IMG/VR virus record: IMGVR_UViG_3300019487_000045
Coordinates: 1 to 46,712 of that record
Reading direction: 5' to 3' (one strand)
DNA length: 46,712 nucleotides
DNA from: a virus
Each line of letters opens with the position of its first letter. Position 1 is the first letter of the stretch. The notes under the pieces are model-generated. The model did not search any database, was not told where the DNA came from, and saw only the letters and a list, made by a program, of their open reading frames with translations. The position numbers were made by a program, and so were the translations under genes. This document shows, piece by piece, positions 24,349-40,862 of this stretch.

Positions 24349-24358
24349 GGTAGCTGCC

Positions 24359-24388
24359 ACTCACCTACCTACTCACTTACTCACTTAC
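24359..24388 (+). repeat. CTCACTTA-type microsatellite, locus 1
   Basis: Short tandem units of CTCACTTA with CTCACCTA variants. The tract would be at the very 5' end of the 24399 transcript, 10 nt before the start codon. Similar tracts occur at 25877-25916 and 26656-26703. Confidence 0.75.
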
Positions 24389-24398
24389 GAGGCACGCC

Positions 24399-25037
24399 AT
24401 GCTCACTTATGCGTCTTTTAGCGGCGGAGAACTCACGCTGCTGCCAGCTCCCACCTCCCCTCGCTCTTTCTGGCGAGATATGCGGCGGAGGGAGGCGGAG
24501 TACCTGGAGTCGCGGCGGTGGCGCGACTCCATAGACCCAGACGAGCCACCCCGGCCCATGCCCCTCCGGCCAGACGGCCAGAGCGCCCGGAGGGAGGCGC
24601 TGACGCCATATATGCGACTCGAGGAGCGGCACCCGAATCACCGCGACTTCGGCGAGGAGGAGCTCGCCGAAGTCGCCGCGGCTAATGAGCGCGACTGGCA
24701 GGCAGTGTGCGAATTTCTGAGAGGCAAACTACCCCTCCATTCGGGGATACACACCGTAGTAGACGAGCAGGGGCTGCCGTTCCCCATGCATGTACGTATA
24801 GCCACCTCCGGGCTGCCGGTGGCGGAGACCACGAGACCGAGGTATGAGCCGCCAGCGCCGCTAAACAGGCCCTGCTCGTATATGTGCCACTCACCAGAGG
24901 CGGTGCACTGTATGCCCGGCGTCTGCCGGGCCACACCAGAGGCCGCGCGGCGGTACGTGCCTGGCACCAAAGTGCTCCTGGAGTTCGCCTGCCGCTACGC
25001 CGCGGAGACTCTCCGCGAGCTCGGATTTGAGGCATGA
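24399..25037 (+). CDS. Unknown protein of the GC-rich island
   Basis: 212 aa. GAGG lies 7 nt before the ATG, right after the microsatellite. The N-terminal half is Arg/Pro/Glu-rich (RSFWRDMRRREAEYLESRRWR, PDEPPRPMPLRPDG). The second half has a Cys cluster (CSYMCHSPEAVHCMPGVC) and a C-terminal helix. Codon use is richer in GC than in neighbouring early genes, and the flanks are hairpin-dense, which suggests acquired DNA. No family recognised. Confidence 0.55.
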   Translation: MLTYASFSGGELTLLPAPTSPRSFWRDMRRREAEYLESRRWRDSIDPDEPPRPMPLRPDGQSARREALTPYMRLEERHPNHRDFGEEELAEVAAANERDWQAVCEFLRGKLPLHSGIHTVVDEQGLPFPMHVRIATSGLPVAETTRPRYEPPAPLNRPCSYMCHSPEAVHCMPGVCRATPEAARRYVPGTKVLLEFACRYAAETLRELGFEA

Positions 25038-25680: not shown

Positions 25681-25870
25681 CGCCCGCCCAGGCGGGCGGC
25701 CAGCCCCGCAGCTGGCGGGCCTAGGACGCGATCTGCGGCGTGCGGCAGGCCTGGCGGGCCGAGGCCAGGCCGGCCGCACGAGCACGCCCTGGCGGGCCGC
25801 TGGCGAGCGCACAGGGCCAGCCAGCGGCGAGCTGCCGGCGGGCGGGCTGGCGGGTAGCCGGCCCGCCGAG
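25681..25870. repeat. Very GC-rich iteron-like tract
   Basis: About 190 bp of almost pure G+C. It contains three exact CTGGCGGGCC decamers (25712-25721, 25751-25760, 25789-25798) and a fourth partial copy (25847-25854), spaced 39, 38 and 58 nt. It begins with a perfect 8-bp hairpin CGCCCGCC/GGCGGGCG with a 2-nt loop. No open frame here looks coding. It could be a replication origin, a protein-binding array or a packaging site; the sequence does not decide. Confidence 0.5.
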
Positions 25871-25876
25871 TGGAAT

Positions 25877-25916
25877 CACCCACCTACTCACCTACTCACC
25901 TACTCACTTACTCACC
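25877..25916 (+). repeat. CTCACTTA-type microsatellite, locus 2
   Basis: Units of CTCACCTA and CTCACTTA, about five in a row, directly after the GC-rich tract and 150 nt upstream of the next gene. Confidence 0.75.
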
Positions 25917-26068
25917 CGCACGGCCCCCAAGGAACACTTACTGGACCAAGGAAAACCTTGGCTCTTGGAAGCGGATAGCAGCCCATAATTCAGACTGGTA
26001 TTGATGCTAGGGGGCTGTTTTTGTAAACAGATTGTCAGGAAGTTAGCCGCTGCTTTAAGGAACATCTA
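25917..26068. other. Non-coding leader with hairpins
   Basis: Holds a perfect hairpin CCAAGG-AAAA-CCTTGG (25946-25961) and a weaker possible terminator, CAGCCC (25979-25984) with GGGCTG (26012-26017) followed by TTTTT. No gene is seen. AAGGA at 26057-26061 serves the GTG start at 26069. Confidence 0.4.
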
Positions 26069-26632: not shown

Positions 26633-26655
26633 ATATAGCAAACCAGCCGCACCCA

Positions 26656-26703
26656 CTCACTTACTCACTTACTCACTTACTCACTTACTCACTTACTCAC
26701 TCA
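26656..26703 (+). repeat. CTCACTTA microsatellite, locus 3
   Basis: The purest locus: five exact CTCACTTA units followed by a partial one. It lies between a terminator and the 26747 gene, so it is the probable upstream DNA of a new transcription unit. Confidence 0.85.
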
Positions 26704-26746
26704 CCACATTGTCCCTTGATTTCTGTTTTCTGGAGGGATTCGTCAC

Positions 26747-27013
26747 ATGCTAGCTTTATCGTTCGTGGACGCCATCCGCCAGGATGGCTATCGTCTCCTG
26801 CGCGTCTCGAGAACCAACCGGCGATACGCCGGCGAGCACGCCGTGCTCGCTATGGACCGGGACTACATCGTCACCTACGTCTTTGTGCCTCACGGCGGGT
26901 GCTATGGGGCGTGCTGCCACCGGCAGAAAATAATCCGGTCCACCGGTCGGGCCGAGGCACGGGTGGAGTTTCTACGAAGGTTTCCCCTAGCCGATGTGAT
27001 TCGAGTGGACTGA
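26747..27013 (+). CDS. Unknown protein carrying a palindromic in-frame insert
   Basis: 88 aa. GGAGG lies 10 nt before the ATG, with TTCGTCAC immediately before it. The segment NRRYAGEHAVLAMDRDY (residues about 24-40) is encoded by a palindromic repeat also found in the E1-like gene at 30545. The rest has a Cys-rich patch (GGCYGACCHRQKIIR) and a helical C-terminus. No family recognised. A strong hairpin follows the stop. Confidence 0.6.
   Translation: MLALSFVDAIRQDGYRLLRVSRTNRRYAGEHAVLAMDRDYIVTYVFVPHGGCYGACCHRQKIIRSTGRAEARVEFLRRFPLADVIRVD
26831..26856 (+). repeat. Palindromic element, copy A (in coding sequence)
   Basis: 26 bp identical to 30545-30570; the core hairpin is GCGAGCAC-GCC-GTGCTCGC (26832-26850). 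In frame it encodes GEHAVLAM. About 20 bp upstream are also clearly related between the two copies. Confidence 0.8.
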
Positions 27014-28130: not shown

Positions 28131-28151
28131 AGCGAGCACCCTGTGCTTGCT
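28131..28151 (+). repeat. Palindromic element relative (intergenic)
   Basis: AGCGAGCAC pairs with GTGCTTGCT (one wobble) around a 3-nt loop, followed by TAGCGCTGGCTGGCTTGC. It is related to the hairpins at 26831, 30545 and 33059. It lies in the leader of the ubiquitin-like gene between two TTCGTCAC motifs (28114-28121, 28188-28195). Confidence 0.6.
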
Positions 28152-28213: not shown

Positions 28214-28438
28214 ATGCGCGTCACGATTCGGTATGGGACCGGCAACGAAACAACCACGGAGTTTCCAGATGGAACCACGCTGAGCGATGTCATTGGTAAC
28301 CCCAATGTGCGCGGTCTCTTGGGCTACGGCCAGAATGTCGTCGGCCACATCGGCGGCATTCCTCAGCAGGACTCCCTGACTCTGTTTAATGGGGTTGTGG
28401 TGGAGATCCACGACAAGCAGAGCCAAAAGGGGTCATAG
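28214..28438 (+). CDS. Ubiquitin-like (beta-grasp) protein
   Basis: 74 aa with AGGAGG 7 nt before the ATG. The layout is beta-grasp: strands MRVTIRYG and ETTTEFPDG, TTLSDVIGNPNVRGLLG as the helix, then NVVGHIGG, a SLTLFNGVVVEIHD strand and a short free tail DKQSQKGS. The C-terminus is Lys-Gly-Ser rather than Gly-Gly. In PRTRC systems the C protein (Prok_Ub family) has this size and fold and often ends near a single Gly. Genes for E2-like, E1-like and JAMM proteins follow within 4 kb, so it is the likely conjugated or carrier protein of the cassette. Confidence 0.75.
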   Translation: MRVTIRYGTGNETTTEFPDGTTLSDVIGNPNVRGLLGYGQNVVGHIGGIPQQDSLTLFNGVVVEIHDKQSQKGS

Positions 28439-28538
28439 AAAGAGGACGGATCGCGAATAGGGGCGACCTGGGGGCGGGGCCAAGACTGCCCCTGGGTTGG
28501 CCTCTACTCCCGATTCCTCGTCAGTAAAAGGAGAGGGT

Positions 28539-28817
28539 ATGCCGTATGTAAGAATTGTCTACGTCCCCATCGATAGCAGCCACCGTTATTGCGGGCTCGA
28601 GGGAGCCATTGTCCGCGTGAACTACCTTCCGGCAAGCGGAATAGAAGTCGTCTATGCGGCGGACAGACTCCCGTGCCGGCCCGGATGCGAATCCGACCAT
28701 CCCCAGTCGGTGGGTGCTTTCTGTGAAGAAGTCCCAGCACATCTAGTACAGCCTGGGGGTCCAGGCACGCACGAACTCGGACCAATCTTTATCCCGCCAA
28801 TCACTAACCCTAACTAG
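28539..28817 (+). CDS. Cys-containing protein of the ubiquitin-like cassette
   Basis: 92 aa from the ATG at 28539 with AAGGAG 6 nt upstream. It has five Cys including LPCRPGCESDHP, and a strand-rich N-terminus (YVRIVYVPIDSSHRYC, AIVRVNYLPASGIEVVYA). It sits between the ubiquitin-like and E2-like genes and is separated from the latter by only 9 nt. It might be a RING-like adaptor, but the Cys spacing does not match a RING or treble clef, so no function is assigned. Confidence 0.6.
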   Translation: MPYVRIVYVPIDSSHRYCGLEGAIVRVNYLPASGIEVVYAADRLPCRPGCESDHPQSVGAFCEEVPAHLVQPGGPGTHELGPIFIPPITNPN

Positions 28818-28826
28818 GAGAATGTT

Positions 28827-29588
28827 ATGGCAATGAAAAATTGCATCGTCATCGACGAGGATGGAGTGGCCCAAAAAGTCACAGTCAAAACCTTCGAAGC
28901 CGGGGAGATACAAAACGCCCTCTACAGGGTCTCACAGAGCGGGTTCCACAGGATCGATTCGGTGTTTATGGTGGACGGCCAGCCCGTGACTATGGCACTC
29001 AACAACAACGGAGTGACTCTGGCGGCGGTCCAACTCCGGCAACTGCCGATCACCACCAACTACATGCTGAATGATAGTGTGCTGAACCCTTGCTGGGCGA
29101 CACTGACAGACGGTGTGCGCATGACTTGCATCTTCGTACCACCAGACAACATGAAGCTATGGCTGACCGTGGAACTCGTGAGCATAGAGAAGCGGACCAC
29201 GATCCGTGAACTCGTGAGCATAGAGAAGCGGACCACGATCCGTAACGTGTTGATCTATGCCCAGGCGGCTGGGCAGACCGGCTACTTCCGGCTCCCGCTC
29301 CCTAATATTCACACCGATAGCCGGCTGTGCCCGAACCGGGAGCATGAAGAATGGGCGAACCACCTCACCGGAGAAAATGCAAACAACATCGAGCTGTTGC
29401 TCAAAAAAGCCATCCGTCACGTCGTTGAGAGCGTCTGGAATAAGGACCTGGCTCCAGCCAACTCAGCGACCAGGCAAATATTCAGTTTCGATCCCCAGAC
29501 ACTCACCAACCAGACCATCCCCAGCGAGTGGTGGACGAGCTGCCAGCGCGTCTCGCGGCTAGAAATGGAGGTTCTCCATGCTAACTAA
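28827..29588 (+). CDS. E2-like protein (PRTRC-B/Prok-E2_D type)
   Basis: 253 aa with AGGAG 7 nt upstream. The key block is YFRLPLPNIHTDSRLCPNREH, with Cys168 in the place of the active Cys of bacterial E2-D proteins, where PRTRC-B members have a PxxNxHxDGRxC-type motif. Upstream strands (VFMVDGQPVTMAL, TCIFVPPDN) and downstream helices (NNIELLLKKAIRHVVESVW) fit the family. An exact 36-bp tandem duplication repeats 12 residues (116-127 and 128-139) before the active block. The gene overlaps the next start by 11 nt. Confidence 0.7.
   Translation: MAMKNCIVIDEDGVAQKVTVKTFEAGEIQNALYRVSQSGFHRIDSVFMVDGQPVTMALNNNGVTLAAVQLRQLPITTNYMLNDSVLNPCWATLTDGVRMTCIFVPPDNMKLWLTVELVSIEKRTTIRELVSIEKRTTIRNVLIYAQAAGQTGYFRLPLPNIHTDSRLCPNREHEEWANHLTGENANNIELLLKKAIRHVVESVWNKDLAPANSATRQIFSFDPQTLTNQTIPSEWWTSCQRVSRLEMEVLHAN
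29172..29243 (+). repeat. Exact 36-bp tandem duplication in the E2-like gene
   Basis: Two identical 36-nt units (29172-29207, 29208-29243) starting GAACTCGTGAGC, in frame, encode ELVSIEKRTTIR twice. Perfect identity indicates a recent event or an assembly artefact. Confidence 0.9.
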
Positions 29589-29952
29589 CCCACAAATCGA
29601 TCAGCGAGTGAGTTCCCTCCTCCATCCGGATCAGCAGGGGATGATTGTTGAAATTATAGATGACTCGATTGGCGTCAGGTTTGATGCACCAAGCGAACCA
29701 GAGCCGGCTGCCGAGGAGAACCTCTATCGGCAGCTGCTGGTCGATTTTTCCGTCAGGTCTGGAGATCCAGACGAAATCCAGGGTATGGACTTACCTCTGT
29801 TTGTCCACTGGCTGTTCAAACGTAGCAGTGAATTCCCGCAACAGGTCCAGGAAATTAAGGACACCGTCATAAGCGCCCGGGGGCAAGTTATCGACCTGCT
29901 GCGATCTGAGATCGCACGTAGACTTATTCAGGAGATGTGCAATGAAACATAA
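29578..29952 (+). CDS. Unknown protein coupled to E2-like and E1-like genes
   Basis: 124 aa. The ATG (29578) lies before the E2 stop and its stop lies after the E1 start, so all three are translationally coupled; GGAGG precedes the ATG. First part: small strand-rich domain (GMIVEIIDDSIGVRF). Second part: helices (QLLVDFSVRSGDPDE, FVHWLFKRSSEFPQQVQEIK, VIDLLRSEIARRLIQEM). It is a conserved-position candidate for one of the unassigned PRTRC components (E or F), without sequence proof. Confidence 0.65.
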   Translation: MLTNPQIDQRVSSLLHPDQQGMIVEIIDDSIGVRFDAPSEPEPAAEENLYRQLLVDFSVRSGDPDEIQGMDLPLFVHWLFKRSSEFPQQVQEIKDTVISARGQVIDLLRSEIARRLIQEMCNET

Positions 29953-30661
29953 AGTCATCGGAGGTGGTGGGATAGGCAGTCGGGTGGTGGAGCAACTAGT
30001 TCGCCTCGTTGATCCTGCCACCGTCACCGTCATCGACGGGGATACGCTGGAAACCAAGAACCTGGACCGCCAGCTATTTAACCAGTCCGCTGTTGGCCGC
30101 AACAAAGCCGAGGCCTTGGCGGAGAAGTACGGCACCGGGTTTATTCCGGAGTATTACTCCTGCGGAGCATTCAATGGAATGGATAACACCACGCTCCTCT
30201 GGTGCTGTGCGGACAACAACACTTGCCGGCGGGAGGTGCTCGATGAATGCGACTTAAATCGCTGCTGGGCGATTCTCGCGGGCAACGAGTACACCGACGC
30301 TGAGGCCATGCTCTACGAGCGGGGACTGCGGAACGGGCCGCACGACCCCAGGACGATCTATCCAGCCATCCTCACGGATCACCAAAACGACCCTCTGGGG
30401 CCACCCGGCTGCGTAGAGCTGTCAGAGGACAGCCCCCAACTGGTCCTGGCAAATGTCTGGGCGGCCAGCTTTGCTTTGCATCTGTATTGGTTTCACTTCC
30501 GCGAACATCAGGCCGTGGACAAGAGAGCCAGCCAGCGCTGCACTGGCGAGCACGCCGTGCTCGCTATGGAGAAAGCCTACTGGCCCATCCATCACAAAGT
30601 GAACTTCCTCCAGTTTTCCACAATCCGGAGGCTCCACCGCCAGGAGGTGATAAATGCCTAG
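29942..30661 (+). CDS. E1/ThiF-like adenylating enzyme
   Basis: 239 aa. Rossmann nucleotide site GGGGIGSRVVEQL (7-19), IDGDTLETKNLDRQLF (31-46) with the ThiF/MoeB NLxRQ Arg, VGRNKAEAL, and the adenylation Asp in CCADNNTCRREV (D91). Cys157 in GPPGCVEL is placed like the catalytic Cys of PRTRC ThiF proteins and is followed by LVLANVWAASFALHLYW. It would adenylate the C-terminus of the ubiquitin-like protein. Residues about 194-213 include the palindromic-element peptide CTGEHAVLAMEKAY. Confidence 0.85.
   Translation: MKHKVIGGGGIGSRVVEQLVRLVDPATVTVIDGDTLETKNLDRQLFNQSAVGRNKAEALAEKYGTGFIPEYYSCGAFNGMDNTTLLWCCADNNTCRREVLDECDLNRCWAILAGNEYTDAEAMLYERGLRNGPHDPRTIYPAILTDHQNDPLGPPGCVELSEDSPQLVLANVWAASFALHLYWFHFREHQAVDKRASQRCTGEHAVLAMEKAYWPIHHKVNFLQFSTIRRLHRQEVINA
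30545..30570 (+). repeat. Palindromic element, copy B (in the E1-like gene)
   Basis: 26 bp identical to 26831-26856, in the same reading frame (GEHAVLAM). The hairpin is at 30546-30564. The preceding bases AGCCAGCCAGCGCTGCACT also match the 33059 family. Confidence 0.8.
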
Positions 30662-31259
30662 TGTCGGTTTTTCACAACCAACCGGAGTAAAACCTATGAC
30701 GGCCACGATTGGCAGCGTCCTGAAACGAGACTTGGGAGACACTATTTATGGGCTGCTGTGCCAGCCCAGCCCCCCGGACAACATCCGGGGCTTGGTGCTT
30801 CGGAAAACCGGGATCCCGATTCCAGAAAAAGAGAACCCCAGGTCCTGGCTGGAGGCTAACTACGAGACGGCCAAAGCGGCCCGGCCGGCACCCGCGGTAG
30901 CCAAACAAACGCCTCTCTATTACACAGTCTCCGGCGGCTACCACCGCCGGGAATATGGAAGCTGCGACTATGCCAACGACGCCAGCTACGCTGGGGAGCT
31001 GCGCGTCCCTGAAAGAGTGATCCGGGAGATCGTGGAGGAAAATGAAGGCGACTTAGATAACATGGTCGAGTACCTGAAGCAGTACGTCCGGGATAATGAG
31101 TCATTTGAAAACAACGGAGACGACTACTCCTACAACAACTATGAGCAAATCGGCTCAGACAGCAGGGAGGATGAGGAGTACAACGCCGCGGAGGTTCTAG
31201 ACGCCTTCCTTGCCGAGCACGGCAACGAGTTTGATGCGGAGGGGAACCGTATCGAGTAG
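30654..31259 (+). CDS. Unknown acidic protein of the cassette
   Basis: 201 aa from the ATG at 30654, which has AGGAGG 6 nt upstream and overlaps the E1 stop; an ATG at 30696 with CGGAG is an alternative. It begins with a helical, mixed-charge region (SVLKRDLGDTIYGLL, NPRSWLEANYETAKAA). A Tyr-rich middle (GGYHRREYGSCDYANDASY) and a strongly acidic C-terminus (ESFENNGDDYSYNNYEQIG, AFLAEHGNEFDAEG) follow. Placed between E1 and the JAMM gene, it may be a substrate or regulatory subunit. Confidence 0.65.
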   Translation: MPSVGFSQPTGVKPMTATIGSVLKRDLGDTIYGLLCQPSPPDNIRGLVLRKTGIPIPEKENPRSWLEANYETAKAARPAPAVAKQTPLYYTVSGGYHRREYGSCDYANDASYAGELRVPERVIREIVEENEGDLDNMVEYLKQYVRDNESFENNGDDYSYNNYEQIGSDSREDEEYNAAEVLDAFLAEHGNEFDAEGNRIE

Positions 31260-31406
31260 GAGGATGGCGAATAGGAACAGCCACCGCAAATTGCGTTCTA
31301 GCTTGACGCGGCGCGGTCAGTCGTTCCAGGCTTTCCTGGCTTTGCGTCTGGGGCGACTCTCCCTGCTTCGTTGTTCACCACACCTACACTCTGATTGGAG
31401 TCTCAA

Positions 31407-32432
31407 ATGTTTATTAAGTCCGAGGACAAGATTTATGAGATCATTAAGGCGGGCAGCTGGTCAGGACTGGCCGAGAGAAATATGGAAGAGATCCAGAACC
31501 CGGTCAATCTCTGGAGCGGGCCTAAGCGGACGCTGGCCCAGCACCAGCAGGTACTGGCTTTCTTTGAGTGGAGCTACCAGACACACAAAAACGAGGCTCA
31601 GGTCAACTGGTTCCTGAACGACACGGAGGGACGCTGGGAGCCGCTGGTGCTTCCCCAGCAGGGCCGCGGGCTGCACGTTAGCCTGTTGCAGGATCACCCG
31701 AACTACATCCCCACCTTCCAGCGGCTAGGGACCGGCTGGTCGCCGCAAGGGACCGACCATCACCATTGTTCTGCCCCAGCCTTTCAGTCGGGCACTGATT
31801 TTGGCGACGAAAAGACCAAGGAGGGGTTACATATCACAATCGGCGGGATAGGGAGCGATAAGTACAGCATCCACGCCCGTTCCAGCTTCCGACACACCAT
31901 CCGCCCGGTGAGGCTGTCTCAGTGGTATGAGCTGCCGGAGTGGGCCGTGAGCCTGCCCCTGAACCTGCAGGACACGATCCTGGAACATCTCCTCACCACC
32001 CCAGCCAAGGACGCGGCCTTCCCGGAGTGGTGGAAAGAGAACGTGATTCCCTTTCGCCAGGTCGCGGTCACGCACACGCCGCTATACAGAGCGTCCTACT
32101 CGCTGCCAACGACAACGCGGTATCCGGCGAAGGAGGACCGGCTGGCGGCGGCGCTCAAGGAGATCGCCGAGGAGCGGCACTGGACGCTGAAGGAATTTCG
32201 CGAGTGGGTGAACGCCATGCTGGAATGCAAGGCCACCTGCGACTTGTTCCGGGCCCTGGACAGCACATTTTGCGACCTCCGGGAGGCCGCGGACGTGCTG
32301 GAGGACATGATCGCTGAGGGGGTTGGTCTGGAATATAATCGCGACGAGGGCGACCTAGAGTTGGCCGCCTTGGAAGAGACGTGGGCGACTGGCGGAGAGT
32401 TGGCCCAGGGGCTAACCCAGGAAAGCCGCTAG
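31407..32432 (+). CDS. JAMM/JAB-domain protein (PRTRC-A-like isopeptidase)
   Basis: 341 aa from the ATG at 31407 with GGAG 8 nt upstream. GTDHHHCSAPAFQSGTDFGD shows the JAMM metal site H-x-H-x7-S-x-x-D (H118, H120, S128, D131), with the same spacing as in AMSH-type enzymes. E63 (KNEAQVNWFL) is a candidate upstream Glu. GLHITIGGI and SFRHTIRPV follow as in PRTRC-A proteins. The C-terminal 150 residues are helical. It would cleave or trim the ubiquitin-like protein. Its neighbours are E1- and E2-like genes. Confidence 0.8.
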   Translation: MFIKSEDKIYEIIKAGSWSGLAERNMEEIQNPVNLWSGPKRTLAQHQQVLAFFEWSYQTHKNEAQVNWFLNDTEGRWEPLVLPQQGRGLHVSLLQDHPNYIPTFQRLGTGWSPQGTDHHHCSAPAFQSGTDFGDEKTKEGLHITIGGIGSDKYSIHARSSFRHTIRPVRLSQWYELPEWAVSLPLNLQDTILEHLLTTPAKDAAFPEWWKENVIPFRQVAVTHTPLYRASYSLPTTTRYPAKEDRLAAALKEIAEERHWTLKEFREWVNAMLECKATCDLFRALDSTFCDLREAADVLEDMIAEGVGLEYNRDEGDLELAALEETWATGGELAQGLTQESR

Positions 32433-32447
32433 CATACCCTCGACCAC

Positions 32448-32473
32448 CCGCCCTGAGGGAAACCTTAGGGCGG
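32448..32473 (+). other. Stable hairpin with GAAA tetraloop
   Basis: CCGCCCTGAGG pairs with CCTTAGGGCGG (11 bp, one wobble) around a GNRA loop GAAA, 15 nt after the JAMM gene stop. No T-run. A 3'-end protecting element or pause signal is likely. The rest of the 170-bp gap holds a diverged GCGAGCACG motif and TTCGTCAC at 32570-32577. Confidence 0.6.
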
Positions 32474-32602
32474 AGACTCCTGGGATTGTCGGTACAGCTA
32501 TTGACTGCCAGGAAATCGGTGACTACAGTAGCGAGCACGCACCGCACAGGCGGCTTGCTTGGGCCACCATTCGTCACACCCTTTCTCACTAAGGAGGCTC
32601 CC

Positions 32603-33049
32603 TTGCCTACCGCTGCTCAGAAGAAACGCCTACACGACACGCGGGAGTATTTCCGCGAGAAGCTGCTCACGGTTGTGAATGATGTCGAGGAGGCCTGGCC
32701 GACGCTCCAGACCCGTTTCGGGATCAATCGCAGCCAATGGTCCCCGCTGAAACGTCAGCTCGGTGAAATACTGGCCGCCGCCAGGAAACACAATGGCAAG
32801 GTGGTAGCTAGTGATCCAGAGGACACGCCTCCTCTATTTAGCGAGCCGGAGGAAATCGTCATCCCCGCGGATATGCCTGTGGCTGCTAAGTCCGCCTTTA
32901 ATGTTTTACTGGCCAGAAATGGGCAGCTAGCTAATGAAGTGCGGGCCAGGGATGTGGAGATCGCCGCCATGCGTGGCGTGATCGCCAGCAACACCAAGCG
33001 GATCAACACGCTCCGGGGTGCCCTTAAGGACGTGATCGACGCAATATAA
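32603..33049 (+). CDS. Unknown coiled-coil protein
   Basis: 148 aa from a TTG with AAGGAGG 5 nt upstream; the open frame runs further up through non-coding-looking DNA. Helical N-terminus (KKRLHDTREYFREKLLTVVNDV) and C-terminal coiled coil (LARNGQLANEVRARDVEIAAM, NTKRINTLRGALKDVIDAI). An acidic Pro-rich linker lies between. Role unknown; a nucleoprotein or scaffold function is possible. Confidence 0.65.
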   Translation: MPTAAQKKRLHDTREYFREKLLTVVNDVEEAWPTLQTRFGINRSQWSPLKRQLGEILAAARKHNGKVVASDPEDTPPLFSEPEEIVIPADMPVAAKSAFNVLLARNGQLANEVRARDVEIAAMRGVIASNTKRINTLRGALKDVIDAI

Positions 33050-33058
33050 GCCAGCCTG

Positions 33059-33120
33059 GCGAGCTGTGCTCGCGCTAGCCAGCTGGCGCAGCGCCGGCGA
33101 GCACTCCACGCTCGCGCTAG
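33059..33120 (+). repeat. Double palindromic element next to the tRNA gene
   Basis: Two hairpins: GCGAGC-TGT-GCTCGC (33059-33073) and GCGAGC-ACTCCAC-GCTCGC (33097-33115), each followed by GCTAG. Between them lies AGCCAGCTGGCGCAGCGCC, which matches the bases before copy B at 30545. This looks like a tandem intergenic copy of the same element. Confidence 0.7.
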
Positions 33121-33139
33121 AAAGGGGCTTGTAGGTGCT

Positions 33140-33212
33140 GTGGTAGTAGCTCAAACGATTAGAGCGCTAGATGGTGAATCTAGAGGTGCGGATTCAACTT
33201 CCGCCTGCCACC
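33140..33212 (+). tRNA. tRNA-His(GUG)-like gene
   Basis: Acceptor GTGGTAG/CTGCCAC (7 bp, one G-U), D stem GCTC/GAGC, anticodon stem CTAGA/TCTAG with loop TGGTGAA (anticodon GTG at 33174-33176), and T arm GCGGA-TTCAACT-TCCGC. Discriminator base is C, as in bacterial tRNA-His. CCA is not encoded. Oddities: position 33 is G instead of the near-universal U, and the D loop lacks the GG pair. It may be a working but divergent tRNA, or a decaying or tRNA-like element. Confidence 0.65.
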
Positions 33213-33217
33213 CTTGT

Positions 33218-33265
33218 GAACGAGGCCGGCTATACCGGGATGAATCCAGCCGTTGTTCGTTTTTT
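33218..33265 (+). terminator. Probable terminator after the tRNA
   Basis: An imperfect stem GAAC...CGGCT with AGCCG...GTTC is followed by GTTTTTT (33259-33265). It ends 32 nt before the next start codon; TTCGTCAC overlaps the T-run end (33264-33271). Confidence 0.55.
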
Positions 33266-33297
33266 CGTCACATCGTCACCGCTAGGAGTATTTCTCA

Positions 33298-33600
33298 ATG
33301 GCCGATGTAATCAACCTGGAGCGGGCCCCTAGGCCTGAATTCACCGACCGCCAGATCAGCTTCGCTAAGAAACTAATTGGGATTGGACTGGCCCGACTCA
33401 CCATCGCCTCGCTGGTCCTGGGAATCGACTCACCCTCCCTTAACCACGCCCAGATCACCTCGTCCAACCGGATGATCTCCAAGGCGTACAAGGAGCTGGG
33501 GTATACCATCACCGACGCTCGGCATGGGGCTAGCCCCCAGACGGCCGCGGCGATCAATGCCTGCGCTCGTGAACTGCGAGTCCGGGTCCGGATTGCCTAG
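33298..33600 (+). CDS. Unknown protein, possible DNA-binding
   Basis: 100 aa with AGGAG 10 nt before the ATG. Two helical segments, TDRQISFAKKLIGIGLARLTI and NRMISKAYKELGYTITDARH, could form a helix-turn-helix-like unit. The C-terminus is basic (ARELRVRVRIA). Followed 8 nt later by a ribbon-helix-helix-like gene. No family assigned. Confidence 0.6.
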   Translation: MADVINLERAPRPEFTDRQISFAKKLIGIGLARLTIASLVLGIDSPSLNHAQITSSNRMISKAYKELGYTITDARHGASPQTAAAINACARELRVRVRIA

Positions 33601-33608
33601 GAGCACCT

Positions 33609-33842
33609 ATGAACAGCAAGAAGCCCAAGACCCGCGTAGAGCTGATGCTGCGGGTCCCGCCGTGGTTGAGATACGCCGTCAATGAGATGGCCTACAGCCG
33701 CCGCATGTCCGCCAATCAGCTTTGCCTGAACGCCCTCACGGCCCTCATTTCTCCGAAGGATCGCTATGTTGCTGAGCAGCACGTTCTTAGCCAAGATCGA
33801 AGCCAGCGGCCGGAGAGCCGCCCAGAGCGCAATTCCGCTTGA
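33609..33842 (+). CDS. Ribbon-helix-helix/Arc-like small protein
   Basis: 77 aa with AGGAGC 6 nt upstream. The segment TRVELMLRVPPWLRYAVNEMAYSRRMSANQLCLNALTALI has a strand (VELMLRVP) and two helices, the Arc/HicB-type ribbon-helix-helix order. The C-terminal 30 residues overlap the next gene in another frame. A regulator or partner of the nearby plasmid-like genes. Confidence 0.6.
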   Translation: MNSKKPKTRVELMLRVPPWLRYAVNEMAYSRRMSANQLCLNALTALISPKDRYVAEQHVLSQDRSQRPESRPERNSA

Positions 33843-33978
33843 ACAGTGTCCGTTTACGTCTAGAACCCTCAAGGAGGCTTGGGAGATGGGCTGGTTTTCT
33901 GGCCGCCCTCAGGCCTTAGAAAGCAGTCCCCATGTCAGATCAAGCCAGTCGGACCGCCAAGATTACCCGGATCAGTGA
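33766..33978 (+). CDS. Rmf/CrpP-like small protein
   Basis: 70 aa with AAGGA 6 nt before the ATG, overlapping genes on both sides. IEASGRRAAQSAIPLEQCPFTSRTLKEAWEMGWFSGRP has the spaced G..A...CPF......W..GW..G pattern of the ribosome modulation factor and CrpP-type proteins. In bacteria Rmf acts on ribosome dimerisation; what a phage version does is unknown. The double overlap lowers certainty. Confidence 0.5.
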   Translation: MLLSSTFLAKIEASGRRAAQSAIPLEQCPFTSRTLKEAWEMGWFSGRPQALESSPHVRSSQSDRQDYPDQ

Positions 33979-34795
33979 CGGCGACAAGACCATCACCACC
34001 AAGGACGGCACGATCCTCTCGATTATCGAGGGAGATTTTGCCGACGGGTCGCTCTGGTCACATTACTGCCCACAAAGCAAGGCCCAGCAAGCGAAGAGCG
34101 ACCTCCAAGCCCTGGTGGGGGTTGAGGGGTTGTTTGTGTTGGTTTCTCAGGGTGAATACCAAGGGAAAAAGAAATGGAAGGTATCCGCCTGGCCAGGTAG
34201 GCCACAGCGAGCGCCATATCAGGGAGGTGGGCGGCACGGCAGCAGTGAAGGGAGTGGATTCATCCCTCGCTACCGGGATAGCCTGGATGGGTTTAATGAC
34301 GAGGGAGCCAGGATTGCTCGCTCCGTGGCCCTCCAGCAGGCGGTAGCCTTCTGCGATGAGCAGGACGCCATCCTGCCGCTGGCCGACAAGTTCTACGACT
34401 GGCTGATACAGGCCCTCCCCGCCCGGCCAGTCCCTCCCATTATCCAGGATCTCCAACAGATGATCCCTGGGATCCATACCGGAGCTGACATGAAAGGTAC
34501 GGCCCAAAAGGCGGCCGACACCATTGCCAAGGCCGCCGGGGAGGCGAACGCGACACTGCTGAACAAGTGCCGAGCTGGTGTCGCTGAGCGGTACGACGAA
34601 AAGGCGATTTCCCCAGAGGAACGAGATGATTTGGAGATCGCCCTGCTCGTTGCTGAGCTGACTATCGCCAAGCAGACGGAGATCGAAGCCTCCGGCAAAA
34701 CCTGCCGCGAAATATACGCCTCCCTGCTGGCCAAATCCGTGGCGGAGCAGAGGAAGCTACATCCAGACGTCCAGGAAGCACTGGACAGATTCTAG
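33932..34795 (+). CDS. Unknown replication-associated protein, possible OB-fold N-terminus
   Basis: 287 aa. The N-terminal 95 residues are strand-rich (KITRISDGDKTITTKDG, LSIIEGDFADGS, LFVLVSQGEYQGKKKWKVSAW), compatible with an OB-like nucleic-acid-binding domain. The middle is helical (LQQAVAFCDEQDAILPLADKF) and the C-terminus is a long charged helical bundle. It lies directly before the ParB-like gene. A ssDNA-binding or replication accessory role is plausible but not shown. Confidence 0.55.
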   Translation: MSDQASRTAKITRISDGDKTITTKDGTILSIIEGDFADGSLWSHYCPQSKAQQAKSDLQALVGVEGLFVLVSQGEYQGKKKWKVSAWPGRPQRAPYQGGGRHGSSEGSGFIPRYRDSLDGFNDEGARIARSVALQQAVAFCDEQDAILPLADKFYDWLIQALPARPVPPIIQDLQQMIPGIHTGADMKGTAQKAADTIAKAAGEANATLLNKCRAGVAERYDEKAISPEERDDLEIALLVAELTIAKQTEIEASGKTCREIYASLLAKSVAEQRKLHPDVQEALDRF

Positions 34796-34824
34796 TTCTC
34801 GTCGTCACCTCAGGAGAATTCTGA

Positions 34825-34998
34825 ATGGGTACTGCCATTGCCGAGCCGCGTCACAGCGCGGCCCCTAAAATCGAGATGCCCGACGAGGAGGTCTATGACA
34901 TCTCCAGCCTGGGAGGCGGAATCGTCCTCAAGCACCGAGAGACCATCGAACTAAAGGTGGAGAAGGCGGCTGATTTTCTAAACCACTCAGAGTTTTGA
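34825..34998 (+). pseudogene. 5' fragment of the ParB-like gene (ends at in-frame TGA)
   Basis: 57 codons from the ATG (AGGAG 9 nt upstream) to a TGA at 34996-34998. The protein ends KVEKAADFLNHSEF. The same frame continues after the TGA with INDVKVDRPVAEH (34999-35037); then a change of frame gives VIHLAREMLSG, which joins the 35061 gene. It looks like one ancestral gene broken by a stop and a frame change. A separate short protein with downstream reinitiation is the alternative. Confidence 0.6.
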
Positions 34999-35060
34999 AT
35001 TAATGACGTTAAGGTGGATCGGCCTGTGGCCGAACATCCGTCATCCATCTCGCCCGCGAA

Positions 35061-36512
35061 ATGCTCTCTGGCAACTTCCGCTGGGAGCAGGTCAATCTGG
35101 CCGTGGCTCATGTCAACGGCCAAATCTATCGCATGAACGGGCAGCACACCTGCTTTCCGGCAGGGACAAAAATACGCCTGGCCGACGGGACGCTTAAGCC
35201 AATTGAGCACGTCACGCTCATGGACAACGTCCTTACTGCCGAGGGGCGGTGCCGTGGTGTAAGGCAGGTCCATTCAATGCCGCACGTCGGGCACCTCTGC
35301 CGAGTGCGGCTCTGGGGTCACGCGCACCTCCGCTGCACCCCCAATCACGAGATTCTTACCAGGCGTGGATACGTCTCGGCAGATTCATTAACATCTGATG
35401 ACCATGTGAAAGTGCCGCGATATGCCCCGCAGTGGGCGTCTGTCATCACGACAGCCGAGCACGTAAGCGGATCGTCCGCAGCAAGCCGGGCCAAAAGCAC
35501 AACCTTTCCAGCCTCTAGCTTTTCACACGGCGGCCGGGTGAATCACAAGCCGGTCCCGGATGCAATTAAACTTGACAATGACTTTGGGCGACTGATTTGG
35601 CTTGCGCCATCCATACACCAAGAACTCACTAAGAACAGGCCAGTCTGGAAGGTGACGGTGGCCGTAGCGACGCTAGGAACTAGGCACCAGGGCCTCCCGG
35701 AGGTGGATTCCGACTCCACCTGGCGCAGGGTGCGGGCAATCGATAAAGAGAAATTTGCCGGCCTAGTGTACGACCTTGGCGTGGACGAAGATCACTCGTA
35801 CGTCGCTGAAGGGATTGGCGTGCATAACTGCTGGGCGCGTATCCAGGCCGATGAGGAGGGCCTCAGCAAAAAGACCCGCTGCCCAGTCCAGATGCTCCAG
35901 TACCAATGCAAGACCGTGGAGGACGCCCGGCAGCTGTACGCCTCCCTGGATCGTGGCCGGGGCCGCGGATCGGGGCTGGTAGTCACCTCTCTGCTGCTAG
36001 GCACCAAGGAATTTGCGGGATATACCGGCCCGCAGCTGAAGATGATGAGTGCTGGGTACGGTCTCTGGCGGTGGGATGAGGCGCACGCACGCAAATGGCA
36101 CAATGCCGATGAGCGAGCGGATATGATGAAGACCGAACATCACAAGCTAACCCTCATCGTGGGGTCGATCATCAGGGAGTCAAGGCAGCGGGACTTCAGG
36201 CACCTGAAGCGGGCGGCCGGGATTGCGGCCATGTTTGAAACCTGCAACAAGGCCCCGGCTATTGCTCGCGAGTTTTGGCTGGTGGTGCGGGACGGAATCG
36301 GCGTAACCAACAAGACCGATCCTCGCTACGCCCTGCGGGAGTACCTCAAGAACACGGCCCAGTGCAGTAGCGAAGCGGCTGGCAGCAACCTCCGCGTGGC
36401 CACCGTTGAGGACATCTACCGGGCCTGTATTCAAATGTGGAATGCCTTTCGGGCCGACAAGGAAGTTAGGCTGATCCGCATCGCCGAAGGCAACCGTCCA
36501 CTAGCGCGCTAA
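35061..36512 (+). CDS. ParB-like protein containing an intein
   Basis: 483 aa from the ATG at 35061. The reading without its intein (residues 31-256) runs LAVAHVNGQIYRMNGQHT-CWARIQADEEG, where NGQHT resembles the GxHR-type catalytic/nucleotide motif of ParB-like (sulfiredoxin-fold) proteins. The helical C-terminal region (KWHNADERADMMKTEHHKL, LREYLKNTAQC) would bind DNA or partners. No good Shine-Dalgarno precedes this ATG, consistent with its being the 3' part of a broken gene. In PRTRC cassettes a ParB-like protein is a hallmark component. Confidence 0.65.
   Translation: MLSGNFRWEQVNLAVAHVNGQIYRMNGQHTCFPAGTKIRLADGTLKPIEHVTLMDNVLTAEGRCRGVRQVHSMPHVGHLCRVRLWGHAHLRCTPNHEILTRRGYVSADSLTSDDHVKVPRYAPQWASVITTAEHVSGSSAASRAKSTTFPASSFSHGGRVNHKPVPDAIKLDNDFGRLIWLAPSIHQELTKNRPVWKVTVAVATLGTRHQGLPEVDSDSTWRRVRAIDKEKFAGLVYDLGVDEDHSYVAEGIGVHNCWARIQADEEGLSKKTRCPVQMLQYQCKTVEDARQLYASLDRGRGRGSGLVVTSLLLGTKEFAGYTGPQLKMMSAGYGLWRWDEAHARKWHNADERADMMKTEHHKLTLIVGSIIRESRQRDFRHLKRAAGIAAMFETCNKAPAIAREFWLVVRDGIGVTNKTDPRYALREYLKNTAQCSSEAAGSNLRVATVEDIYRACIQMWNAFRADKEVRLIRIAEGNRPLAR
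35151..35828 (+). other. Class 1 intein in the ParB-like protein
   Basis: 226 residues from Cys (CFPAGTKIRLADGTLKPIEH) to HN. Block B is CTPNHEIL (T-x-x-H), block F VYDLGVDEDHSYVAEG, and block G IGVHN before extein Cys. FGRLIWLAPSIHQEL in the centre recalls the first LAGLIDADG helix but lacks the acidic residue and a second motif, so any endonuclease is a remnant. It sits exactly after NGQHT. Confidence 0.9.
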
Positions 36513-38306: not shown

Positions 38307-40862
38307 ATGGATTCTCTTGTCACCCTGCGGGATTATCAGAGCCTGGCTGTGAGGCAGGCTTTCGACGCCTGGAGAGCCGGACACCGCTCGGTGCTAATGT
38401 GCCTGGCTACCGGCTCCGGGAAGCGCAAGATTGCCCTCTACATCATGCACCTAGCAGCCCAGAAGAGGCGTAAGGTGCTGTTTGTTGGCAATCGGCGGCT
38501 ACTCATCAACCAGGCCGCCGACGACGCTGAGCACTGCGAGATCGACTACGGCGTCATTATGGCCGACGTCATGCAGGGTAATCACGGCTCCACCAACCAG
38601 ATCGCCTCCCTCCAGACCCTGGAGTCCAGGCACCTCTACGACAAGTGGAGCAACATCGCCACAGGAGATGGCCTGCCAGAGGCGAATCTCCTGGTACACG
38701 ATGAAGCTCATTCTGATACCGACAGGTTCTGGCACATCGCCTCGTTCTACCCCGATGCCAAGATCCTAGGGCTCTCGGCCACACCGGTAGGTAGAGAAGG
38801 CCGGGCACTGGTAAATAGCCCCTACGACGTCCTCCTGGAGCCGATCAAGAACTCAGCACTCATTGAGCGGGGGTTCCTGCTGCCCACGCGAGTCTGGGCT
38901 CCCTCCGAGCCCCAGCTCGATGGCGTCAAGATCGTCAAGGGCGAATACAACCAAACCGCCCTTGGTCGGCGGGTACAGGAATGCACGGTCGCTGGGGATG
39001 TGTTTAAGGAGTGGGACCAGCATCAAGACAAGGCCACGGTCTGCTTCGTTCCAGGCGTCCCCTTTGGCCGCTCACTCGTCCAACAATTCAACGCCAGGTA
39101 CGGCGCTGGCACGGCCCAAATCATCGCAGCCAAAACAAAGCCTGAAGAGCGACTAGACGCTATTGGGAGAATTGCTAAAGAGGGGCACGGTGTCCTGGTC
39201 TCATGCGATGTCCTCAAGGAGGGGTTTGACTGCCTGGACGCACAAACAGAAATCCTGACCGCCGGAGGATGGGTCGGGATCAACAACATCCCGGCAGCGG
39301 GAGAACTGATCTGGACGCTCAACTCAGATCGCAATGAGGCGGAGCTGGCACCGGTTTTGGCGTCAATTAGACGCCCCGTGCGGGCTGGAGAGAGGTTCTT
39401 GGTGGCATCCAACGAACACATAAATCTACGTGTAACTGAAGGGCACAGGCTGTACCATCGCGTTGATGACGAATGGTCATCCATAGCAGCTGGAGAGGCG
39501 ATTGGCTTGAGCGGCGATCTGACGCTCCCGCTGGCTTCCGAGGCGCTGTTTGAGGGAATCCCTCTTACTGACGATGAGATTCGATTCGTGGCCTGGTTTA
39601 TGACAGACGGCGGCTTGGGAAGCGGGAATCGCAGCTCAGTAATTGAGATCGCGCAATCCAAGGACTGGCACCACAACATTCGTGACCTCCTGAAACGGCT
39701 GGGATATAATTTCTCTGAAAGCGTCAAGTCGCCATCGCTAACTGGCTACAAAACAGATAAGAAATCGCACAGATTTTGCGTCCCCAGGGGTGTCCGCGGT
39801 AATGTTGTTGGCTGGGGCCGCCTGGCCCCCTATCTAGACCGGGACGTTTCCCCGCTCTTGATGCGAATGACAAAGCGACAGTTTACTGTCTTCTGGGAAG
39901 AACTCATGAAGGGAGCCGGGAGCCAGCAGGCCGGAAAAGGCGGGCAACTCATATGCTCTCGCCAGAGCCAAGCAGACCGTTACATGCAAATGGCGGTCAC
40001 TCGCGGAATGGCAACGTGCCTCCTGGAGTGCAAAACCAGAAAAGGCAAGGCGATCTATTACGTTCGAGTTCGGGACGCTTCATCTATTACTCTGCGGCTT
40101 ACTGACAAACGGTCCGCCAGATTCACGCTGGAAGAGTCACGCCAGGAAGATGAAGTGTGGTGCGTCACCACTAGGAATGACACCTTAATCACGAGGCGTA
40201 ACGGGAAAGTTCTAATAATAGGCAATTGCCCCGTGCTGTCATGTGGGATTGATCTACAGCCCAGCTCACAGCTCCGTTCGTATTGGCAAAAACTAGGGCG
40301 AATCAAGCGCACTTACGAGCATCAGACTGCTGCCGTCTGGCTCGATTTCGCCGGAAACTACTGGCGATTCCCTCATCCCGACGAAGACCCAGAGTGGCCC
40401 ACCTGTTCCCCGCAAACCACGCAGGAAATCATCGAGCGGAAGCGGGCGGAGGGCGGTGAAAAGCAGCCGATCATGTGCCCGAAGTGCTGGTACGTCCGGG
40501 CGCAAGGCCCCAGCTGCCCCAACTGCGGCCACGCGGCCGGTGAAGCCATCCGTCGTATCCGACTCGGACAAGGGCGACTTAAAGAGGTTCCGGCTCGCCA
40601 ACACCAGGCGCAGCGGCTGAGCGACGAGCAGAGATTATTAAATAAATGGAAATCCCGTCTTTACGGGGCCATGAAAAGCGGCTTAACCTACTCCCAATGT
40701 GCCGCCGTGTTTGCCAAGGAGACAGGCAGTGGGCCTAAGCCGGGTTGGCCGGGGACCTATGCCGCCCACGCTATGGATTGGTCCAGGCGACCTAAGCACG
40801 AGCACACCTTTCATTCGCTCACCAAGCTGTTCAACGCCTTCCAGGAGACACTGCGTGACTAA
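38307..40862 (+). CDS. SF2 DEAD/DEAH-type helicase interrupted by an intein
   Basis: 851 aa precursor, 519 aa after splicing. Motif I is LATGSGKRKI (34-39), motif II HDEAH (132-135) and motif III LSATP (156-160). Motif V is split as VLKEGFD/CPVLSCGIDL around the intein (residues 309-640), and motif VI is QKLGRIKR. A zinc ribbon (CPKCWYVRAQGPSCPNCG) lies in the C-terminal part. It resembles phage RAD25/UvsW-type helicases used in replication or recombination. The intein separates motif V, so unspliced protein should be inactive. Confidence 0.88.
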   Translation: MDSLVTLRDYQSLAVRQAFDAWRAGHRSVLMCLATGSGKRKIALYIMHLAAQKRRKVLFVGNRRLLINQAADDAEHCEIDYGVIMADVMQGNHGSTNQIASLQTLESRHLYDKWSNIATGDGLPEANLLVHDEAHSDTDRFWHIASFYPDAKILGLSATPVGREGRALVNSPYDVLLEPIKNSALIERGFLLPTRVWAPSEPQLDGVKIVKGEYNQTALGRRVQECTVAGDVFKEWDQHQDKATVCFVPGVPFGRSLVQQFNARYGAGTAQIIAAKTKPEERLDAIGRIAKEGHGVLVSCDVLKEGFDCLDAQTEILTAGGWVGINNIPAAGELIWTLNSDRNEAELAPVLASIRRPVRAGERFLVASNEHINLRVTEGHRLYHRVDDEWSSIAAGEAIGLSGDLTLPLASEALFEGIPLTDDEIRFVAWFMTDGGLGSGNRSSVIEIAQSKDWHHNIRDLLKRLGYNFSESVKSPSLTGYKTDKKSHRFCVPRGVRGNVVGWGRLAPYLDRDVSPLLMRMTKRQFTVFWEELMKGAGSQQAGKGGQLICSRQSQADRYMQMAVTRGMATCLLECKTRKGKAIYYVRVRDASSITLRLTDKRSARFTLEESRQEDEVWCVTTRNDTLITRRNGKVLIIGNCPVLSCGIDLQPSSQLRSYWQKLGRIKRTYEHQTAAVWLDFAGNYWRFPHPDEDPEWPTCSPQTTQEIIERKRAEGGEKQPIMCPKCWYVRAQGPSCPNCGHAAGEAIRRIRLGQGRLKEVPARQHQAQRLSDEQRLLNKWKSRLYGAMKSGLTYSQCAAVFAKETGSGPKPGWPGTYAAHAMDWSRRPKHEHTFHSLTKLFNAFQETLRD
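39231..40226 (+). other. Intein with LAGLIDADG-type endonuclease in the helicase
   Basis: 332 residues from Cys309 (CLDAQTEILTAGGWVGINNI) to Asn640. Block B is VTEGHRLYHR. The end is KVLIIGN before Cys, with Gly instead of the usual penultimate His. FVAWFMTDGGLGSGN and FWEELMKGAGSQQAGKG fit the two LAGLIDADG (dodecapeptide) helices, although the second has Ala for the catalytic Asp (KGAGS rather than GDGS). The endonuclease may be impaired. Confidence 0.85.

Follow-up and report, generated by a model that had tools for sequence, protein, structure and literature searches.

Why should a tailed phage carry genes that look like the working parts of a ubiquitin system? The question is raised by IMG/VR virus record IMGVR_UViG_3300019487_000045, the whole of whose 46,712 nucleotides (the window) was analysed, and in particular by seven plus-strand open reading frames (ORFs) at 28214-32432. 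An original prediction, made from the letters alone, saw among them a ubiquitin-like modifier, an E2, an E1 and a JAMM protease, in the manner of the PRTRC cassettes of plasmids but on a small tailed phage. The positions of the ORFs and their common strand were confirmed. Each of the seven starts has a Shine-Dalgarno-like purine-rich site, and the genes overlap by 8-11 nt at the E2-X, X-E1 and E1-Y junctions. The word "small" does not hold: the window is bases 22315-69026 of viral contig IMGVR_UViG_3300019458_000006 (70,638 bp), and so the phage is of at least 70 kb. The seven ORFs are these:

28214..28438, plus strand: ubiquitin-like beta-grasp modifier, 74 amino acids, ending SQKGS, with an invariant lysine near the C-terminus
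28539..28817, plus strand: orphan ORF between modifier and E2, 92 amino acids, Shine-Dalgarno sequence present
28827..29588, plus strand: E2-like protein related to Prok-E2_D and PRTRC_B, with Cys168 within PLPN...C
29578..29952, plus strand: gene X, 124 amino acids, a positional counterpart only
29942..30661, plus strand: E1-like adenylating enzyme of the ThiF superfamily, with GxGGxG, D32/D34, NLxRQ, K55, D91 and Cys157
30654..31259, plus strand: gene Y, 201 amino acids, with a GxCxY motif and an acidic C-terminal half
31407..32432, plus strand: JAMM/JAB metalloprotease with E63, H118, H120, S128 and D131, most likely starting at the ATG at 31407

I propose that the region encodes a self-sufficient phage pathway for the conjugation and deconjugation of a ubiquitin-like protein, with proteins of replication or recombination as its probable targets, and put the probability of this at about 0.65. 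The cassette itself is a real and conserved ubiquitin-like set: a tag, enzymes to attach it and an enzyme to remove it. That a full set sits on a tailed phage, as originally predicted, is confirmed by leave-one-out profiles, by the Pfam ThiF match and by intact catalytic residues. Sequence and structure prediction together give the protein families, the predicted ubiquitin fold, the intact catalytic residues and the conserved gene order.

How can four proteins be recognised when only one of them announces itself? Single-sequence scans of Pfam, NCBIfam and PHROG gave no usable match for the modifier, the E2 or the JAMM protein. E1 alone was recognised, and relatives were therefore collected to make profiles. 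Viral contigs were searched with E1 alignments, one match in species genomes (a 5.9-kb contig of a Verrucomicrobia metagenome-assembled genome, or MAG) was included, and the relatives' ORFs were assigned by iterated profiles. The leave-one-out profiles excluded either the window or its whole subgroup and were ranked over the 428 ORFs of the window. With the window excluded, the modifier (58 bits, 1.6e-17), the E2 (79 bits, 8e-24) and the JAMM protein (144 bits, 3.6e-43) each come first against their own profile, and the next-best ORF scores at most 4.8 bits. With the whole subgroup excluded all three still come first, at 4e-12, 6e-7 and 1e-28, respectively.

The modifier gene, E2, E1 and JAMM were found in every relative locus with enough flank. 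Twelve other viral loci, from uncultured phages, and the MAG contig have the plan modifier-E2-(X)-E1-(Y)-JAMM, its order nearly always kept. Counting the window there are 14 distinct cassette loci, all 14 with the modifier, and in the 13 relatives its gene stands upstream of E2 as it does in the window. Subgroup I (the window and loci L026, L050, L051, L052, L054 and L069, the contig of the last ending before JAMM) reads modifier-E2-X-E1-Y-JAMM. Subgroup II (L053, L055, L058 and a near-copy, L068) follows the same plan with a larger gene at the Y slot, subgroup III (L056, L059, L061) reads modifier-E2-X-E1-JAMM, and the outlier L027/L028 reads modifier-E2-x-JAMM-E1. A terminase (phrog_2) match occurs in 9 of the 15 cassette contigs searched. 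In the E1 tree one clade (100/98) unites the window with 12 relatives, and another (100/98) holds six plasmid PRTRC rows; T4-size phages also stand apart, and L027 is unplaced. The JAMM tree agrees with that of E1; in it, three sequences that come from bacterial assemblies group with L027. A JAMM search of 289 genomes of the MAG's phylum gave three matches. One short contig from an assembly in that phylum (L075:374-3039) reads E2-JAMM-E1-modifier, its modifier ending KAAGEKG, and relatives therefore occur also in bacterial assemblies.

What kind of protein is the modifier? Its AlphaFold model, from a 14-row alignment, has a predicted local distance difference test (pLDDT) score of 86 and the order beta-beta-alpha-beta-beta. 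All 50 of the 50 listed PDB matches are of the ubiquitin, NEDD8, SUMO or ISG15 type, at template modelling (TM) scores of about 0.7. The modifier is thus predicted to have the ubiquitin fold. Its lysine is invariant in the 14 sequences and is followed by alanine in ten, glycine in two and asparagine or glutamine in the other two; about half of the 14 have a short tail. An MtrA identity was also considered, on a match of 17 bits, below cut-off and in one member only, and was dropped because of the predicted ubiquitin fold.

The E2 keeps Cys168 in all 21 sequences, with an N-x-D-L motif downstream, and Prok-E2_D is matched by 11 of those 21 (best 1.3e-7). A UBC fold is a plausible reading of these sequences. 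The AlphaFold model (pLDDT 82) has uncharacterised phage proteins as its top matches among predicted viral structures. Searched by sequence with the E2 profile, the PDB gave no match, and tblastn of E2 against plasmids found nothing. The gene also contains a perfect, in-frame 36-bp tandem duplication (29172-29243).

E1 scores 44.4 bits against Pfam ThiF (PF00899; cut-off 28.1), and its best NCBIfam model is PRTRC_ThiF (TIGR03736; 49 bits, E 4.7e-13, against a cut-off of 144.75 bits). The glycine loop, two aspartates, Asn40/Gln44 of NLxRQ, Lys55, Asp91 and Cys157 are invariant across the phage and PRTRC rows. The zinc-site residues of the JAMM protein listed above are likewise invariant in 16 sequences, 12 of which match Prok-JAB (best 1.4e-9). 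All PDB matches of the JAMM profile are RPN11/PSMD14, and tblastn of JAMM against phages found nothing. Across the relatives, then, catalytic residues of E1, E2 and JAMM have not been lost, nor is an unrelated fold predicted for the modifier, and so the original prediction is not refuted on its own terms. A palindromic repeat with a GGCGAGCACGCCGTGCTCGC core, interspersed in the window at 26805-26864, 30519-30578 and 33070-33129 with a related inverted copy near 28131, has one of its copies (30519-30578) in frame within the C-terminus of E1, a stretch missing from relatives.

Is this, then, a PRTRC system? The cassette shares with PRTRC a cluster of E1, E2-D-type E2, JAB and small ubiquitin-like protein, and HHalign relates its E2 to PRTRC_B (95.7%) and its JAMM protein to PRTRC_A (93.3%). 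The modifier is another matter: its HHalign probability against PRTRC_C is 4%, though the C-terminal ends align. The general NCBIfam scan of ORFs found no PRTRC E or F, no comparison aimed at X or Y having been made. Moreover, the cassette has a separate E1 clade, another gene order, other partners and no PRTRC ParB. The predicted resemblance therefore stands as homology of components (PRTRC_B, PRTRC_A and PRTRC_ThiF) and falls as membership (E1 clade, PRTRC_C, ParB).

Another close system is class 6d, described as having a ubiquitin-like protein with a highly conserved terminal glycine and an E2 with a conserved histidine downstream (Iyer, Burroughs and Aravind 2006, PMC1779556). As there, the cassette has a stand-alone ubiquitin-like protein, a one-cysteine E2, a JAB protein, an unfused E1 and an extra conserved protein. 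It differs in being phage-borne, in modifiers that mostly end Lys-Ala rather than in glycine, and in an E2 where N-x-D-L replaces the histidine, which PRTRC_B rows have as FTH or FSH and the cassette E2s lack. Because E1 clade, modifier end and E2 histidine all differ, I regard the cassette not as PRTRC but as a branch of its own, found in phages, within the 6d/PRTRC superfamily.

Other phages have kindred clusters. The cultured large tailed phages Bacillus KLEB27-3, Salmonella Arash and Vibrio D69 possess the same enzymes, E2, JAB and ThiF, but in the order E2-JAB-E1, with an E1 outside the window's clade and with a modifier of the PRTRC_C/Prok_Ub type, often in head-to-tail repeats ending Lys-Gly. 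KLEB27-3, D69 and T4-size relatives have PRTRC_C-like modifiers, several of them so repeated. Thus KLEB27-3 gp199 (L011:676-1422) consists of four near-identical Prok_Ub repeats (5e-27), resembling a polyubiquitin precursor; similar precursors have three repeats in D69 (L013:2355-3143) and five in L034:3586-4689, the units ending Lys-Gly. Two modifier repeats at L035:3502-3921 are identical in protein, and their 31 nucleotide differences over 195 positions are all synonymous. In Arash the E1 and E2 homologues (L012:1519-4539) are labelled "structural protein" by their depositors.

The original prediction knew of no characterised version in a small tailed phage. This holds for open-access papers, where no description of phage E1/E2/modifier/JAMM cassettes was found (subscription papers and preprints lay outside the search), but cultured phages with an annotated component do exist: ThiF or PRTRC protein A is annotated singly in KLEB27-3 and in Acinetobacter phage ME3.

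From the sequences and models I infer maturation, catalysis and conjugation by the cassette, and the pathway might run as follows. JAMM would trim off any tail on the modifier. E1 would adenylate the modifier's C-terminus and pass it, probably via Cys157, to Cys168 of E2. E2, partnered by Y and perhaps also by X, would join it to target proteins, from which JAMM would later remove it.

What might the targets be? The genes downstream of the cassette encode RecT, a helicase and a DUF2800/PD-(D/E)XK protein in subgroup I, and PolA, primase and a UvrD-type helicase in subgroup III. Among more distant relatives, the gene directly after E1 is dnaX on a Lysinibacillus plasmid and is DnaN-like on a phage contig. 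These neighbours lead me to favour replication and recombination targets, with modest confidence. That the targets are such proteins of the phage, or captured ones of the host, is the weakest part of the proposal, and on its own I would put it at a little under an even chance.

Several observations weigh against the proposal as a whole. Most modifiers lack a terminal glycine or GG, which is unusual for a modifier that is to be adenylated. The class-6d histidine downstream of the cysteine is present in none of the 21 E2s. Taken singly, neither the window's E2 nor its JAMM protein matches a Pfam model, and the E2 model has no significant fold match in the PDB, so the UBC fold draws its support from sequence only. 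As to targets, neighbourhood is a weak guide because the early regions of phages are dense with replication genes, and the neighbours in subgroup II are without assignment.

Eukaryotes modify PCNA, an analogue for replisome control. A bolder and doubtful version of the proposal is that tailed phages control the replisome by a pathway of their own, with a modifier ending Lys-Ala, an E2 without the class-6d histidine and the partner Y. The tag would then be produced, in some cultured phages, in the form of a polyubiquitin-like precursor. Class-6d/PRTRC ubiquitin-like operons have been known since 2006, and no published function was found for them in the open-access literature. A compact cassette with its catalytic residues intact, kept by divergent phages, together with the tandem precursors of cultured phages such as KLEB27-3, lets the question be put to experiment in laboratory pairs of phage and host, and a modifier ending Lys-Ala would probe how strictly the chemistry requires a C-terminal glycine.

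Might the cassette serve instead in counter-defence or the control of superinfection? Ubiquitin-like chemistry occurs in bacteria in the Bil, Bub and CBASS Cap2/Cap3 systems. The phage might modify proteins of the host or of rival phages, or JAMM might strip the conjugates made by CBASS, Bil or Bub. Bacterial E1/E2/JAB systems do serve in antiphage defence, as in the ubiquitin-like conjugation of type II CBASS (PMC10449767); an anti-phage 6A-MBL cap2_3 model is among the NCBIfam matches of E1, and the cassette is spread across unrelated phages whose neighbouring genes otherwise differ. But stripping requires JAMM alone, yet modifier, E1 and E2 are retained together with intact residues. Among the neighbours of the cassettes, many of them without assignment, no gene for defence or counter-defence was recognised, nor was a CD-NTase partner such as CBASS has, a likeness judged without a formal membership test. 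I consider this explanation unlikely, if deserving of attention.

Less plausible still is a part in virion assembly, with the modifier joined to structural proteins and cut from them, a role suggested for the tail proteins I and K of lambda. Lambda-type phages do pair a ubiquitin-like protein with a JAB protein, another case, with the bacterial systems just named, of such chemistry in bacteria and phages (PMC1779556, PMC10449767), and the label on the Arash homologues may point the same way. However, the lambda pair lacks E1 and E2, and the cassette lies away from tail genes: the head and tail genes recognised in the window lie between 5 and 20 kb on its minus strand, at least 8 kb off, the cassette being in a plus-strand block, and the cassettes of relatives adjoin replication genes.

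It is very unlikely that the modifier is a sulfur carrier like ThiS or MoaD, charged by E1 and processed by JAMM: modifier members match ThiS weakly (best 0.0023) and E1 is of the ThiF superfamily, but the modifier has no C-terminal GG for a thiocarboxylate, an E2 with an invariant cysteine is always present, and none of the genes recognised nearby has to do with sulfur or cofactors.

A last explanation, and a last set of predicted components, involves a linked gene downstream, read as ParB-like in the original prediction:

34825..36512, plus strand: linked "NGQHT" protein, frame-disrupted (34825-34998, then 35061-36512)
35151..35828, plus strand: intein of 226 amino acids within it, at the NGQHT-C junction (PF14890, 2.1e-13; TIGR01443, 9.8e-8)

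The frame disruption is due to either sequencing error or decay. In L050 a homologue with 29% identity, intein-free at that point, directly follows JAMM. Neither protein matches Pfam ParB, and the L050 homologue reaches only E 3.7 against PRTRC ParB, so the ParB reading of this split, intein-bearing gene finds no support. The least credible explanation is a true PRTRC system maintaining a plasmid-like prophage: component homology and the supposed ParB speak for it, but E1 forms a separate clade and neither an integrase (0 of 12 contigs) nor ParA (0 of 14) was matched, positive controls being detected, and plasmid-prophage maintenance is therefore disfavoured.

Returning to the proposed conjugation pathway, one may ask whether the three unassigned ORFs inside the cassette are new components, as was predicted. 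Only Y earns the name: it scores 45.2 bits against a profile built on the Y genes of six relatives, where it holds the same place (best of 500 shuffles, 5.4 bits), and by sequence is a conserved new component in the window's subgroup. For X there is a gene of 100-185 amino acids in the E2-E1 slot of most relatives, but a profile of these does not match the window's X. The orphan at 28539 has no homologue detected in the Pfam, NCBIfam or PHROG scans or among relatives, and the modifier-E2 gap in relatives of the same subgroup, only about 50-95 nt, has no counterpart of it.

Some other features of the window may be recorded. Upstream of the cassette are tandem arrays of an octamer of the TACTCACT type (24354-24409, 25861-25931 and 26638-26716), and downstream is a single gene for tRNA-His (33140-33213). 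Further on, a ResIII-type helicase (38307-40862) has 851 amino acids against 583 in L052. It aligns to phage helicases as two separated pieces and likely carries a large insertion.

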